Of a DNA stretch of 64,000 bases, positions 1 to 43,383 are shown one piece after another; position 1 is the stretch's first letter, and every line of letters starts with the position of its first letter. The notes beneath the pieces were generated by a model that saw nothing but the letters and a program-made list of their open reading frames with translations, had not been told where the DNA came from and searched no databases. The position numbers and the translations under genes are program-made. Source of the stretch: Thermoplasmata archaeon (lineage in GTDB: Archaea; Thermoplasmatota; Thermoplasmata; Halarchaeoplasmatales; Halarchaeoplasmataceae); assembly GCA_003554965.1 (NCBI GenBank), contig PWHR01000041.1, positions 1 through 64,000 on the forward strand. The letters are read 5' to 3'.

Positions 1-284
1 CCCCCTCTCAGGGCCCGTACCCGTCATAGGCTAGTGGGTCCGTTACACCCACTACAACCTGATAGGCCGCAGACTCATCCTTGGGCGCTAACGCTTTAGA
101 TCTCGGCGCATTCCAGCATCCGAGGTCTATGGGGTATTGTCCTCAGTTTCCCGAGGTTATACCCCACCCAAGGGTAGATTATCCACGTGTTACTGAGCCG
201 TTCGCCGGGCGCGCGAAGCACCCTCGACTCGCATGTCTTAATCAGACTCCAATAGCAGTGGCCGCCGGCAGGATCAACCGGAAT
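1..284 (-). rRNA. rrs: 16S ribosomal RNA, 5' part (cut by window edge)
   Basis: Read on the minus strand, the RNA begins at 284 with the archaeal 16S 5' signature (ATTCCGGTTGATCCTGCCGG), followed by the conserved stretch around 'GACATGCGAGTCGAGGG' and the 'AACGGCTCAGTAACACGTGG' block. Only about the first 284 nt are inside the window; the rest and any 23S lie to the left. A promoter and a leader of about 160 nt precede it on the minus strand. The sequence is clearly archaeal; the 5' fragment alone is too short to give a reliable order or class. Confidence 0.98.
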
Positions 285-37893: not shown

Positions 37894-39138
37894 ATGAACG
37901 TCCCTAAAAAATACTTGACTATAACGGTGGCGATCCTTCTCATAATCGCCTTCGAATTCTCTGCCCTTGGATTCTCTCCGATCAGGGATACCATCACCGG
38001 GGAAGAGGAGGAAGAAGAACTGACTCCTCCTGAAGATACCTTAGAGTGTCAGAAGGATTTCTCTTTCGATCTGTTTTTCCAGTTGATCGAATCTCAGGAC
38101 GAAGACAATATATTCATCTCACCGTACAGCATCCACACTGCTTTACATCTCGCGGCAACAGGAGCCGATGGGGAAACCAGAGATGAGATGGATGAAGTCC
38201 TTCGCCTTCAAGGCGAAGAAGTAAAAGAAGATGCTTCCCAATTGATGGAGTGGCTGGAGGATTTCAGCGAAAAGAACGACGTTTCCGTGGCAAACTCGAT
38301 GTTTTTGGACGAAGATATACCTTTCAGAGAGAGTTTCGTCGATGATGGAGAGAAATACTTCGATGCGAAAGTTGACGAACTTCCTGAAACTGGTGAGCCC
38401 ATAAACGAGTGGGTGGAAGAAAATACCGAGGGAAAGATAGAGGAACTTATAGATCCAGGCCCGATAGATCCACTTACCATAGCATACCTTGTCAACGCGA
38501 TCCACTTCGAAGGGGCATGGGAAAAAGAGTTCGATGAGGAAGAAACCGAAATAGATACCTTCCACGGTGAGGAGGAGGTCGAAATCGAGATGATGAAGAA
38601 CCGCGCCAACTACTCTTACTTCGAAGGGGAGGATCACAGAGCAATTTCTTTAAATTACGATAACGGCGATTATAGTTTCAATGCATTCCTGCCGAACAGA
38701 GATTCTTCTCTCGAAGAGTTCTATCAAGATTTCGATAGAAATACTTACGAGGAAAATATCGACGATATGGAGAAAGAAGATGTGATGGTCCGGCTGCCGA
38801 AGTTCACTCTAGAAGAAGATTATGATCTTGTAGAATCCTTAGAATCTATAGGGATCGAGAGGGCTTTCGAAAAGTACGAAGCAAATTTTTCTGATATGGT
38901 TGAACTCAAAGATATGGATAGGAACGTCTACATCTCCGAAGTTTCTCACAGCTCATTCATAGAAGTCGACGAAGAGGGGACCGAAGCCGCAGGGGCCACC
39001 GGGGTCGGCATCGGGGTGGACTCGGCCGAACCCCCATATCCCGTGATGGATTTCGATAGGCCGTTCTTTTTCACTATCGAGGAACCTGAAACAGAAACGA
39101 TGCTTTTTAAAGGTCATGTAGGGGATCCATCTGAATGA
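37894..39138 (+). CDS. Secreted serpin
   Basis: A 414-residue serpin with an N-terminal membrane/signal helix (YLTITVAILLIIAFEFSALGF) and an acidic spacer. Core serpin blocks are NIFISPYSIHTALHLAATGADGET, ANSMFLDEDIPF, AYLVNAIHFEGAWEKEF, VRLPKFTLEEDYDL and ISEVSHSSFIEVDEEGTEAAGATGVG. The hinge EEGTEAAGATG has the small residues needed for loop insertion, so it should be inhibitory. Counting from the hinge puts Asp at P1 and Ser at P1', but the stretch to the RPFFF strand is three residues longer than in alpha1-antitrypsin, so the bond is uncertain. Serpins are uncommon in archaea. It may protect the cell surface from secreted proteases, including the large subtilase at 56-62 kb. Confidence 0.93.
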   Translation: MNVPKKYLTITVAILLIIAFEFSALGFSPIRDTITGEEEEEELTPPEDTLECQKDFSFDLFFQLIESQDEDNIFISPYSIHTALHLAATGADGETRDEMDEVLRLQGEEVKEDASQLMEWLEDFSEKNDVSVANSMFLDEDIPFRESFVDDGEKYFDAKVDELPETGEPINEWVEENTEGKIEELIDPGPIDPLTIAYLVNAIHFEGAWEKEFDEEETEIDTFHGEEEVEIEMMKNRANYSYFEGEDHRAISLNYDNGDYSFNAFLPNRDSSLEEFYQDFDRNTYEENIDDMEKEDVMVRLPKFTLEEDYDLVESLESIGIERAFEKYEANFSDMVELKDMDRNVYISEVSHSSFIEVDEEGTEAAGATGVGIGVDSAEPPYPVMDFDRPFFFTIEEPETETMLFKGHVGDPSE

Positions 39139-39144
39139 AATTTA

Positions 39145-39486
39145 TCAGAACTGTAAAGGTCCACACTGTTCGTAATCGAGACCGTGCTTGAGAGCCAATT
39201 CTGCCTTCTGGAGCTCTCTACCTAGATGTGCAGCGTGATCCAACCTTGAGATCATGCCCTCTCTGATAAGGGTATCGCAGACAGCTTTGGCCGAAGTTCC
39301 TTTTATCACTTTATTCAATTCTCCTGTCTCTACCTCTAGTTTTCCCTCCTTCTGCACGTTCAAGTAGTGCTCAACCAATATCTCATCCTTCACATTGATA
39401 ACGAAAAAACCTCTTTCATCGAATTCTACGCTCTTCTTTTCTTTTGCCTCTATGATCTCTACTTCCTTTTCAGCCACACTGAACAC
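39145..39486 (-). CDS. DUF4346 protein at the end of the C1/methionine operon
   Basis: The 113-residue protein has the DUF4346 signature: GFFVINVKDEILVEHY, the core VETGELNKVIKGTSAKAVCDTLIREGMISRLDHAAHLGRELQKAELAL and the end YEQCGP. This domain is known from methanogens and relatives, fused to or next to pterin- and corrinoid-linked proteins (dihydropteroate-synthase-like, MtrA-like). Here it overlaps the methionine synthase gene by 17 bases and closes the operon. It may bind the pterin or help the MtrA-like protein, which lacks this part; this is inference. Confidence 0.85.
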   Translation of the reverse strand: MFSVAEKEVEIIEAKEKKSVEFDERGFFVINVKDEILVEHYLNVQKEGKLEVETGELNKVIKGTSAKAVCDTLIREGMISRLDHAAHLGRELQKAELALKHGLDYEQCGPLQF

Positions 39487-40363
39487 GCTCCTTAGCTTCC
39501 ACCATATTTTTCAACTTCATCTTCGCGGTTTTAACATCTAGATTTCTTAGTCCGCAGTCAGGATCTATCATTACCTTGGGACCGAAGAGGTCTACTGCTT
39601 TCTCTATCCTTTTTCGTATCTCCTCCACCTCTTCCACTGTGGGCTCTGTGGAGACCACACCGACCGATAAACGCTGGGGAAAGTCGATATCGCTGAACTT
39701 ATCATAAAGTACAGGGTTGGTGGTGAATTCATGATCTAAAATATCTACATCCAACTCGACCAGTTCTTCCATCATCTCAGTGACGTCCCCACAAACATGA
39801 AGTGCGATAGGCACATCGATATTCAAGAGCTTCTCAAGAGACTCTTGAGCATGATCTGGAAAATCGATCGAAAATAGTGGTTCATCTATCTGGATCACAT
39901 CACAAACACTAGAAAGTCTGATTGCTTCTTCAGCTAGAGCCTCCGCAGTATCCATCACCGCCTCTTTTTTATCCTCATAGAACATATCTTTGGAACTTTC
40001 GACAAGAGTGCAAGGACCAGTGACGATACCTTTAAGGCCGGTTCTATCAGGTATGATCTCTCTGACCAGCCTTTGATCCTCAACAGTTATCTCCCCTGAG
40101 TACTTCACTCTTTCAACGATCTCAACCCGTTCTTTGATCCTGTACCCGGAAAGCCCCTTTGCAAAGATATCGACCATACTCGCCCTAGTCTGCCCGTCCG
40201 AGATGAGATCTAAGCCGCACTCTAGTTGATCTTCTACAGCTCTCTTCAGACTAGACTCAAAAGGACCTTTTTTCTCATAAAATGAATTTATCAATTCAGA
40301 TCTTTCAGGCCGTGAAGGATAACTCCCTACCACTGTGGTCAACAGTTCACTATCGATATCCAT
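39470..40363 (-). CDS. Core-type cobalamin-linked methionine synthase (MetE C-terminal fold, MesB-like)
   Basis: The 297-residue protein corresponds only to the C-terminal catalytic half of MetE: TTVVGSYPSRPE at the start, DGQTRASMVDIFAKGLSGY, VTGPCTLVESSKD, VIQIDEPLFS, the zinc ligands in LHVCGD (His-x-Cys) and DPDCGLRN (Cys). It lacks the folate-binding N-terminal half, so it must take its methyl group from a corrinoid protein, as shown for methanogen homologues. Next to MtrA- and MtrH-like genes, the donor is most likely methyl-MtrA. A 57-base gap separates it from mtrH. Confidence 0.92.
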   Translation of the reverse strand: MDIDSELLTTVVGSYPSRPERSELINSFYEKKGPFESSLKRAVEDQLECGLDLISDGQTRASMVDIFAKGLSGYRIKERVEIVERVKYSGEITVEDQRLVREIIPDRTGLKGIVTGPCTLVESSKDMFYEDKKEAVMDTAEALAEEAIRLSSVCDVIQIDEPLFSIDFPDHAQESLEKLLNIDVPIALHVCGDVTEMMEELVELDVDILDHEFTTNPVLYDKFSDIDFPQRLSVGVVSTEPTVEEVEEIRKRIEKAVDLFGPKVMIDPDCGLRNLDVKTAKMKLKNMVEAKERVQCG

Positions 40364-40420
40364 ACCTCAAAAATTGATGCATCATTTAAAAAATTAGCGC
40401 CCTCACCTTAGAATATTTCT

Positions 40421-41335
40421 TTATAATTTGTGGTACGGATGTGCTTCAGATACCTCGATGCCAAAGTAATCTTGTGCTCCTTCAGCGATGATCTTGTCCG
40501 TGAAGGCTGCATTCACTATGGATCTTTCCGCGTTCTCTATCGGACCGTAATAGATGAAGTCCGCTCCCAAGAGCATCGGTAAGTTATCGACAGCAGCATC
40601 AATTATATCGAATATCTCACCTTTATGTTCATACTGATCCAACCAACGCCACGCTTCTAAAGTATTGTGTAGAGAACATCCTACGGGTAAACCGAATTCG
40701 GTCTTGAAAACAGGTACCGATCTAACAGCTTCACAGGCACCTTCTCCGAAGGTCGTTGCGGCAGTATCCAATAAGGGATATTCTACACCTATCTTTTCAC
40801 TCATCTCTAAAAGACCTTCATCGAGAAGAACGCCGCCTTCGCTGATCATCTCCTTCCTTCCATGGGTACTGTTGTCCTGGGGGTTGTAGGCTAAGAGGAT
40901 AGCTCCCGCTGGAGTTTTATCTTTGAGAAGCTCATACTCTTCCTCTTCCAAACCCAGATTCAGGCTGTTATATATGACTCGATCCAATGAATCTTGCTCT
41001 TCAAGATACTCAAGGACTTTCATCCTCACCTCTGATTCAGGCACATCCACGGAAAAGAAACCATCTATCTTATCTAGGGCAAAATCCAGCTTCCATCTTA
41101 CTTCCTCTTTTTCGTATATGAAAATATCTACCATGGAAGGAACAGAAGCTTTTTCGGAAATCTTATTTTGTCTATCTATCAGTTCAGAAGCTTCGTCCAA
41201 AGAAGATATTGGTTCTTTGAACTGATCTTCATAAAACATGGTTCCGACCATCAAAGTAGGGAACTCGCCGGGCTGTCCTCCGACCTTCATATCATCTAGC
41301 TCATGAGTGGTCTGTTCTTCGGCATAACTGAACAT
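40421..41335 (-). CDS. mtrH: MtrH-like methyltetrahydropterin:corrinoid methyltransferase
   Basis: The 304-residue TIM-barrel protein matches MtrH: the opening FSYAEEQTTHELDDMKVGGQPGEFPTLMVGTMFY, PSMVDIFIY, IYNSLNLGLEEEEYELL, PLLDTAATTFGEGACEAVRSVPVFKTEFGLPVGCSLHNTLEAW, and the C-terminal AHPYHKL. In methanogens MtrH demethylates methyl-tetrahydromethanopterin and charges the corrinoid of MtrA within a membrane complex. Here no MtrB-G gene is present and the gene is in a methionine operon, so a soluble two-component methyl transfer is inferred. Its ATG overlaps the mtrA stop by one base. Confidence 0.93.
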   Translation of the reverse strand: MFSYAEEQTTHELDDMKVGGQPGEFPTLMVGTMFYEDQFKEPISSLDEASELIDRQNKISEKASVPSMVDIFIYEKEEVRWKLDFALDKIDGFFSVDVPESEVRMKVLEYLEEQDSLDRVIYNSLNLGLEEEEYELLKDKTPAGAILLAYNPQDNSTHGRKEMISEGGVLLDEGLLEMSEKIGVEYPLLDTAATTFGEGACEAVRSVPVFKTEFGLPVGCSLHNTLEAWRWLDQYEHKGEIFDIIDAAVDNLPMLLGADFIYYGPIENAERSIVNAAFTDKIIAEGAQDYFGIEVSEAHPYHKL

Positions 41336-41922
41336 CAGCTCACCTCCGAGCTAAAAGAAGTTATCTCTCCCCAAGGAGAAACGGATAGAGAAGAATGCAG
41401 AGCAAAATCCGCCTGGAATTCGGTGCCCTTGCTCTTTTCCAGCTTTATCACGGTATACGGTTCTCCGAAGCTATCTGGGTCTTTTTCAAGCAGATCGTTG
41501 ATCTTCTCTTCAATCTCTTTTTTTGATACTGTATCCACCATATCTATCACATCTACCTGTTCACGAAACCTTTCCACAGCTTCTTTAGAGATATTCTCGA
41601 TGTAGGGTACGGCACCGGGAGAACAGATTATCCTGCCTTTCTCGTCTATACCGTTCTTGGATACCTTTATTAGTGAAAGTCCTGACTTGTGCCCTCTTAT
41701 CTCCTCCCCACAGACAACCACATATCTTATATTCGGATTAGATATGGTGTTGGCTATAACTTTCTCTATACCGAGGTTTTCGGTCCTCATCGGACCCCAT
41801 ATCGCAACTTTTTCCGGGTCAAATTCGAACTTTTTTCCCAATGTAACTACCGCCACAGATGAAGAGGATTCACCGGTCTTAAAATCTCCTGGCCATGGAT
41901 ACAGCTCTTTTTCCTCGATCAT
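41335..41922 (-). CDS. mtrA: MtrA-like corrinoid protein lacking the membrane anchor
   Basis: A 195-residue protein with the MtrA core: SVAVVTLGKKFEF, IWGPMRTENLGIEKVIANTISNPNIRYVVVCGEEIRGHKSG, and GAVPYIENISKEAVERFREQVDVIDMVD. H78 in GHKSG is at the position expected for the lower cobalt ligand. Methanogen MtrA (about 240 residues) ends with a membrane helix. Here the C-terminus (YTVIKLEKSKGTEFQADFAL...) is soluble, as in cytoplasmic MtrA relatives. It overlaps the reductase gene upstream by 4 bases and mtrH downstream by 1 base, so the three are translated as a unit. Confidence 0.93.
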   Translation of the reverse strand: MIEEKELYPWPGDFKTGESSSSVAVVTLGKKFEFDPEKVAIWGPMRTENLGIEKVIANTISNPNIRYVVVCGEEIRGHKSGLSLIKVSKNGIDEKGRIICSPGAVPYIENISKEAVERFREQVDVIDMVDTVSKKEIEEKINDLLEKDPDSFGEPYTVIKLEKSKGTEFQADFALHSSLSVSPWGEITSFSSEVS

Positions 41923-42875
41923 ATATCTTCTAGCCTCCTGATCACATCACCGGATATGCCATCATGTCTCACTGGTATTATATGTGCCCCTATCTTGGTT
42001 TTTAGACCCTTTTCTTTCACTCCGTCTATTATCTCCTCATAGAATTCGATCGTGAATTCCATTGATTCCTCTGCTGTGTTCTCTGCCCTTATCAATCTTT
42101 TCTTGGTTCGGTCGGGTATAGTTACCTGCGGCACCGAGTCTAACAGACCGCGTATCTGGTCCTCAGAATTGAAAGGTGTAGTACCGACAAGAACCGGTAC
42201 GTTCCTATCACTCCTTTTTTCGAATTCTTCGATAAAAGTGATCATCTCCTCCGCATCGTAGCATATCTGCGTTTGAAAGAAATCTGCCCCGGCTTCCACT
42301 TTTTGTGCCGCATAACTGGCTTCATTGGATCGATATGAAACGACCACGCCTCCTACCTGAAAATCCGTTCTTTCCTCGATCCCTTCCACTCCCTGCAGGT
42401 AGCGATTTCTTTGTCTGTATGGAGCACCTGAAAGTTCGGGCATCAATTTTCCTTCGTTCAGGTATCGTTTTATCCCTGTGATGAGCTCTAAAGAGTTTAT
42501 ATGATCCACTTTTTCTTCTGCGGGATAGTCCCCCACACCATAATCTCCTGTCATCGCAAGTATCGTCCTAACTCCTAAACTATGTGCTCCCAGTAACCAC
42601 CTCTGTAGTCCACTGAGAGTAGAATCCCTGCAGGTGAGGTGAGCAACGGGTTCGATGTCGAGTTCATTTAAGATGCGACCAGAATATGGTGCAGGATCTA
42701 TCCTCACTATACCTACAGGATTATTGCATACATTGAGACCTACAACTTCATCTAAAAAATCGTAATCTCTTATCTTCTCTATATACTCATCAACATTTCC
42801 TCCTCTAGGTGAGGGTACCTCGAATGTTTTTGGAAACCGCTCATCCTCCAATAACGACACAAAGTCGGACATCAT
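41919..42875 (-). CDS. metF: MetF-like methylenetetrahydropterin reductase
   Basis: A 318-residue TIM barrel of the methylenetetrahydrofolate reductase family: TFEVPSPRGGNVDEY at the start, VAHLTCRDSTLSGLQRWLLGAHSLGVRTILAMTGD, and AGADFFQTQICYDAEEMITFIEEF. It reduces methylene- to methyl-pterin; the pterin may be tetrahydromethanopterin-like rather than folate, because its neighbour is MtrH. It is the first gene of the operon metF-mtrA-mtrH-methionine synthase-DUF4346. A TATA-like GGATTAAATAAA and an AGGAG lie before the ATG ATG start. Confidence 0.93.
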   Translation of the reverse strand: MMSDFVSLLEDERFPKTFEVPSPRGGNVDEYIEKIRDYDFLDEVVGLNVCNNPVGIVRIDPAPYSGRILNELDIEPVAHLTCRDSTLSGLQRWLLGAHSLGVRTILAMTGDYGVGDYPAEEKVDHINSLELITGIKRYLNEGKLMPELSGAPYRQRNRYLQGVEGIEERTDFQVGGVVVSYRSNEASYAAQKVEAGADFFQTQICYDAEEMITFIEEFEKRSDRNVPVLVGTTPFNSEDQIRGLLDSVPQVTIPDRTKKRLIRAENTAEESMEFTIEFYEEIIDGVKEKGLKTKIGAHIIPVRHDGISGDVIRRLEDI

Positions 42876-42963: not shown

Positions 42964-43383
42964 ATGGACGAACCCCAGAGAAGAGAGTGTGATACATCAG
43001 ATATATGTTTGCACCGATCCATCGATGGAGATTGGCTTCCGCTTCTAAGAAAGAAAAGGAAGATGACTCTAGCTCCACATCCTTACTGTGGAAAATGCGG
43101 ATTGGTCAGGAATGTTGGGCCAGACAGACCTAAAAAGATCGGTTTTTACGTGGACAAACTTTCAGAATTAGAAAGATATCTTGAAAATGAAGACTCAAAG
43201 GGAGGAAAAAATAAGTTGACTGAAGCCCAAAAACGCCTTATAGTCAAGGAGATGGAAGACCAGGAGGTATTTATCGATCTTTACGGGGTCATGGCTAGCA
43301 CTCAAAAAGAAAAGTTCATAGATATAGTACGAAAGTACAGACCAGATATCGAAGAAAAGGTCATCGAATACCACCTTGGGTGA
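42964..43383 (+). CDS. Conserved-looking protein with a C-x2-C motif, function unknown
   Basis: The 139-residue protein has two N-terminal cysteines (C9, C15), a central LAPHPYCGKCGLVRNVGPDRPKKIGFYVDKLSELERYL block, and a helical C-terminus (EDQEVFIDLYGVMASTQKEKFIDIVRKYRPDIEEKVIEYHLG). The cysteines with a nearby histidine could bind zinc or iron-sulphur. I do not recognise the family. A TATA-like GATTTATTATAAC abuts the ATG. It is transcribed away from the methionine operon and toward the glycosyltransferase gene. Confidence 0.7.
   Translation: MDEPQRRECDTSDICLHRSIDGDWLPLLRKKRKMTLAPHPYCGKCGLVRNVGPDRPKKIGFYVDKLSELERYLENEDSKGGKNKLTEAQKRLIVKEMEDQEVFIDLYGVMASTQKEKFIDIVRKYRPDIEEKVIEYHLG

Follow-up and report, generated by a model that had tools for sequence, protein, structure and literature searches.

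The window analyzed here, a 64,000-nucleotide stretch of contig PWHR01000041.1 from a Thermoplasmata archaeon (GCA_003554965.1), contains a cassette of five open reading frames on the minus strand. From position 42875 down to 39145 they encode a MetF-like reductase, an MtrA-like and an MtrH-like protein, a MesA-type core methionine synthase, and a DUF4346 protein (Table 1). The Pfam scores of all five proteins were well over the respective cut-offs. Adjacent genes overlap by 4 nt (MetF/MtrA), 1 nt (MtrA/MtrH), and 17 nt (synthase/DUF4346), and a gap of 57 nt separates the MtrH gene from the synthase gene. A preliminary description of this DNA had reported five overlapping genes; the five reading frames, with strong Pfam matches, stand, but overlaps were found at only three of the four junctions. 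The five genes look like a single operon, at which an Rfam search found no RNA element.

Table 1 Genes of the cassette (39145–42875) and other features of the window
Feature	Position	Strand	Product length	Matches
metF-like methylenetetrahydrofolate reductase, first gene	41919..42875	-	318 aa	PF02219 (MTHFR) 96.9 bits
mtrA-like soluble corrinoid carrier	41335..41922	-	195 aa	PF04208 189 bits; 5LAA 156 bits
mtrH-like methyl-pterin:corrinoid methyltransferase	40421..41335	-	304 aa	PF02007 215 bits; TIGR01114 240.7 bits
MesA-type core methionine synthase, C-terminal MetE half only	39470..40363	-	297 aa	PF01717 (Meth_synt_2) 145 bits; NF002119 264.5 bits
DUF4346 protein, last gene	39145..39486	-	113 aa	PF14251 78.9 bits
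Serpin, downstream of the cassette	37894..39138	+	414 aa	PF00079 340 bits
Divergent gene upstream of the cassette	42964..43383	+	139 aa	no Pfam match
Archaeal 16S rRNA gene, start	1..284	-		RF01959 258 bits

Immediately downstream of the cassette, a gene of opposite orientation encodes a serpin, a type of protease inhibitor that is uncommon among archaea. The divergent gene upstream adjoins the cassette in 11 relative loci, apparently of the same family only; it was considered as a further cassette component and rejected, being a neighbor inside this family only and having no Pfam match. The 16S rRNA gene runs past the window edge and could help to place the organism. The genome to which the window belongs is 93% complete and comprises 2.33 Mb on 101 contigs; its gene content was examined one protein family at a time. 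Among named genomes, the Thermoplasmata MAGs T1Sed10_113R1 and GSL_GSL3510_9 (Great Salt Lake) are nearest to it. Members of the GTDB group PWKY01 (Thermoplasmatota) from this lake have been described as Ca. Natronoplasma in the order Ca. Haloplasmatales, with a fermentative heterotrophic lifestyle (PMC11287216), and we infer that the organism analyzed here belongs to this group.

In the Mtr complex, MtrH methylates the corrinoid that is carried by MtrA. The cassette MtrA has no C-terminal hydrophobic stretch that could serve as a membrane anchor (maximum 19-residue Kyte–Doolittle mean of 0.45), and the preliminary description of this protein as anchor-less was thus borne out. Glu48, His78, and the segment GAVPYxEN were invariant in the alignment of cassette sequences (32 of 32), and by correspondence to the cobalt ligand His84, its partner Glu54, and the GAIPF/Y-x-EN segment of MtrA counterparts (PMC4915002), His78 is the cobalt ligand and Glu48 its partner. 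The pterin-site residues Asp97, Asn123, and Asn224 of MtrH were invariant in 31 sequences, and two of them (Asp97 and Asn224) align with positions differing between deposited variants of MtgA, which are taken to be active-site mutants. MtgA is a bacterial relative of MtrH that has tetrahydrofolate (H4F) as its partner, loaded from a corrinoid protein. The MtrH of the window scored below the cut-off of the MtrH model TIGR01114 (271.4 bits) and is nearer to it than to the MtgA model (144.6 bits; cut-off 550), and one other cassette MtrH passes the curated cut-off for methanogen MtrH.

The cassette is widespread in the phylum. Within its own family, MtrA was found in 13 of 16 genomes including the one under study, and neither MtrA nor Meth_synt_2 is present in one genome (G009). 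The same block MtrA-MtrH-MesA-DUF4346 was also found in families f10, f11, f16, f33, f41, f43 (where the last gene is cut off at the contig end), f45, and f60. MetF does not form part of the operon in f11, f16, f33, f41, f43, and f45; in f10, f60, and the family of the window it adjoins MtrA. More than 20 genomes from several families with differing flanking genes share the gene order MtrA-MtrH-synthase-DUF4346, so that a chance arrangement can be excluded. Among 390 evenly sampled Thermoplasmatota genomes, cassette-type MtrA was detected in 49, of which 48 also contain Meth_synt_2 (Fisher p = 2e-25, uncorrected for descent in a set of related genomes dominated by f41). The sole exception is G251, whose mtrH is cut at the contig end. 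The Meth_synt_2 gene lies downstream of MtrA on the same strand in 41 genomes, at a distance of ~1.0 kb in all but one, which leaves room for one mtrH; in G011, G014, and G295 the MesA gene is located away from MtrA. Insertions were also observed: 5.6 kb separate mtrA from mtrH (L103 2003–7550, G196), and 1.3 kb separate mtrH from the synthase gene (L048 6544–7823, G007). In the sampled cassette genomes, Meth_synt_2 never occurred at a second, separate locus.

In phylogenetic trees, the cassette MtrA sequences grouped in a single clade (support 96/91 after removal of the longest branch), as did the cassette MtrH sequences (99/97), and the MtrA and MtrH gene trees recovered the larger families. 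Both clades sit beside methanogen MtrA, MtrH, and MtgA in trees that are unrooted and include few methanogen sequences. The soluble Mtr-like set is perhaps a relic or a precursor of methanogenesis. A separate, divergent MtrA-MtrH pair was observed in an McrA-bearing genome of the same class, on the same contig as the mcr genes (L114 17543–19223, G050); this genome has neither MtrE nor a Meth_synt_2 gene.

The synthase consists of the catalytic half of MetE only, as had been noted earlier: its open frame of 298 aa is the single PF01717 locus of the genome, in which no folate-binding half was found with this model. The zinc ligands His189, Cys191, Glu212, and Cys270 and the homocysteine residues Ser14, Gln58, and Asp160 were invariant in 33 sequences. 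A Gln at the homocysteine site marks MesA and MesC (PMC7857596). On the MesA-type model NF002119, the synthase of the window exceeded the cut-off of 258 bits (Table 1), and those of five other cassette genomes scored 227–273 bits, some slightly under this cut-off. A split-MetE catalytic subunit of the same phylum scored 113 bits on this model and 312 on PRK04326. By these comparisons, the cassette synthase is classified as MesA type and not as split-MetE type.

Elsewhere in the phylum, the synthase is paired with a folate-binding half, forming split MetE, and in one Thermoplasmata genome a MetF-like gene adjoins such a pair as a corrinoid-free counterpart of the cassette (L089 480–3527, G244). 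Since MesA is homologous to the catalytic subunits of split MetE, one could propose that MesA alone, or with an unrecognised partner, is dependent on methyl-folate and that MtrA and MtrH are merely neighbors with another task. We consider this highly improbable. PF01717 also picks up the folate half of split MetE, yet no second locus appeared in the sampled cassette genomes, the two synthase types differ in their scores on the MesA-type model as given above, and the conserved order MtrA-MtrH-MesA would be left unexplained.

MtrA, MtrH, and Meth_synt_2 each occur once in the genome. McrA was not found in this genome or in the tested cassette relatives (a search that covered families other than f33, f37, f41, f43, f45, and f60), MtrE (PF04206) was absent from all 21 genomes searched, the own genome included, and PF02574, the homocysteine-binding domain of MetH and BHMT, had no match in 21 genomes, likewise including the own genome; the controls for MtrE and PF02574 were positive, and control genomes also gave the expected results in the searches for McrA, CdhD/E, Mch, and FolD. 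With only one Meth_synt_2 and no MetH/BHMT, the genome has no other recognised methionine synthase, and on these grounds a second B12-independent or a MetH-type enzyme was rejected. Of the expectations raised by the preliminary description, that of a genome free of mcr, metH, and a second metE agrees with the results for McrA, PF02574, and PF01717 in the 93% complete assembly. The claim that none of MtrB-G is present holds for MtrE genome-wide and, for all of these subunits, beside the cassette, the genome-wide search having covered MtrE only. From this gene content, the organism is predicted to make no methane. Since the best family matches of MtrA and MtrH are those of the sodium-pumping Mtr complex, the pair could nevertheless be a leftover of it and still use coenzyme M or some other thiol as methyl acceptor. 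Such a role is scarcely credible: besides the lack of MtrE and McrA hits and of a membrane anchor, the active sites are intact in all members with no decay, and the partner is MesA and not a coenzyme M methyltransferase.

The nature of the cofactors can be narrowed down from the same inventory. FolD was detected but not Mch, and tetrahydrofolate or an analogue, not methanopterin, is therefore the probable C1 carrier. CobS (PF02654) was detected in 1 of 28 genomes and was not found in the own genome, for which reason the corrinoid of MtrA is probably imported as a complete cobamide. In MetF, Glu19 and Asp111, the counterparts of the catalytic Glu and Asp of E. coli MetF, were conserved in the 14 homologues reaching those alignment columns.

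MesA of Methanobacterium thermoautotrophicum uses methylcobalamin, with too weak an affinity for the free compound, and uses neither methyl-THF nor methyl-H4MPT; Price et al. (2021), who defined MesA and reported it in methanogens only, predicted MtrA to be its methyl donor (PMC7857596). From the chemistry of the families, in which MtrH methylates the MtrA corrinoid, MtgA uses H4F, and MesA uses methylcobalamin, we infer the following route. MetF would reduce methylene-H4F to methyl-H4F, and MtrH would transfer the methyl group from methyl-H4F to cob(I)alamin carried by soluble MtrA. MesA, with zinc-activated homocysteine, would then take the methyl group from methyl-cob(III)alamin-MtrA to form methionine, thereby releasing cob(I)alamin-MtrA for another round. 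The operon thus very probably encodes a corrinoid-dependent methionine synthase that is split over three soluble proteins and comes with its own supply of methyl-folate. Points that weigh against this reading are the missing CobS, in view of which the route would have to depend on imported cobamide, the operons without MetF in several families, the MesA genes located away from MtrA in a few genomes, and the fact that no protein for the reactivation of cob(II)alamin was identified. The central proposal of the preliminary description, that methyl transfer by soluble MtrA and MtrH feeds the core synthase, is supported by the results for McrA, MtrE, and other synthases. Two of its details need adjustment. 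The system was said to be built from methanogenesis parts, but the first enzyme, MetF, is no such part; and the pterin is probably tetrahydrofolate and not methanopterin.

The opposite direction of flow was also considered, in which MtrA and MtrH are mainly catabolic, a methylated compound delivers its methyl group to MtrA, MtrH loads H4F, and MesA is a side branch. In bacteria, MtrH relatives such as MtgA do transfer the methyl group of a corrinoid protein to H4F, several families have no MetF in the operon, and Asgard MtrAH has been discussed in such a sense (PMC11291895). We regard this direction as very unlikely, because there is no substrate-specific methyltransferase within or next to the cassette, MesA is its constant partner, and the MetF gene that heads the operon in this family speaks for synthesis of methyl-H4F. 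Furthermore, CdhD/E, the corrinoid subunit of CODH/ACS that could consume methyl groups through the Wood-Ljungdahl pathway, was not found in the own genome or the tested cassette relatives, which again came from families other than f33, f37, f41, f43, f45, and f60. The Wood-Ljungdahl corrinoid protein was rejected as a methyl donor on the same grounds.

The DUF4346 protein closes the block in other families too. Its predicted model (pLDDT 88) gave no Foldseek match at E ≤ 0.001, and its sequence had no meaningful match in the PDB. A single reading frame encodes both MtrA and DUF4346 in a MAG bearing the label Chromatiales (L004 4843–5727; model NF002128) and in a CdhD/E-containing Thermoplasmata genome (L062 11303–12100, G056). 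These fusions indicate, as far as sequences can tell, that MtrA with DUF4346 has additional uses outside the cassette. Because it is fused to MtrA in other lineages, DUF4346 is expected to dock on MtrA, and in the methionine synthase proposed here it would probably act as a cap or adaptor.

No description of the operon was found in the accessible literature, which excluded subscription papers such as the original description of Haloplasmatales. The idea that MtrA is the methyl donor of MesA was already published in 2021 (PMC7857596); the cassette provides strong comparative support for it and makes it concrete. Judged by sequence, it also extends MesA beyond the methanogens. The data are best explained by a corrinoid methionine synthase in which most of the parts are not those of MetH. 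The roles of MtrA, MtrH, and MtrAH recorded outside methanogens are unclear (PMC9635834, PMC11291895), and such genes can be taken for traces of methanogenesis in surveys; the cassette gives them a concrete job. It also offers a small soluble system for a direct look at methyl transfer between MesA and MtrA, without the membrane-bound Mtr complex. Since MtrA and MtrH appear to work here without the membrane subunits, the cassette is relevant to the question of which steps came first as methanogenesis evolved. It is nearly as probable as its opposite that MtrH-MtrA-MesA(-DUF4346) represents a phylum-wide third architecture of methionine synthase on methyl-folate, which would explain many orphan MtrA and MtrH genes of non-methanogens and would point to an anabolic function of MtrA and MtrH that is independent of the sodium pump and possibly older.

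Compared with known systems, the cassette synthase shares with methanogen MesA (METE_METTM; PMC7857596) the short catalytic domain, the zinc and homocysteine residues, and the Gln. It differs from the reported distribution of MesA, as McrA and MtrE were found neither in its own genome nor in the tested cassette relatives, and its operon contains soluble MtrA, MtrH, and MetF, with a pterin that is likely of the H4F type. The loading of the corrinoid on MtrA by MtrH and the conserved cobalt-ligand and pterin-site residues are likenesses to the Mtr complex that are suggested by the alignments, whereas the cassette has no membrane anchor, MtrE, or evident coenzyme M step, and its proteins form separate clades. 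The orphan MtrA and MtrH or MtrAH fusions of non-methanogens (PMC9635834, PMC11291895) likewise occur without the rest of the complex and outside methanogenesis, but the fate of their methyl group is unclear, whereas the synthase is a constant neighbor in the cassette. In Ca. Methanomethylicus mesodigestum, an MtrH-corrinoid protein pair lies beside metE and an anabolic role was considered in passing (PMC7886697); its corrinoid protein, however, resembles MtbC/MttC of the methylamine kind and not MtrA. Split MetE of archaea, the catalytic subunit of which is homologous to MesA and adjoins a MetF gene in L089, requires the folate-binding second half and no corrinoid, in contrast to the cassette, where no such half was found. 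With MetH and with MtgC/MtgD, a modular corrinoid methionine synthase that marine bacteria have built from other parts (PMC12478193), the cassette would share the route from methyl-H4F via a cobalamin protein to homocysteine, while the corrinoid domain and the homocysteine module of those enzymes differ from its own, and MtgC/MtgD are bacterial and tied to glycine betaine.
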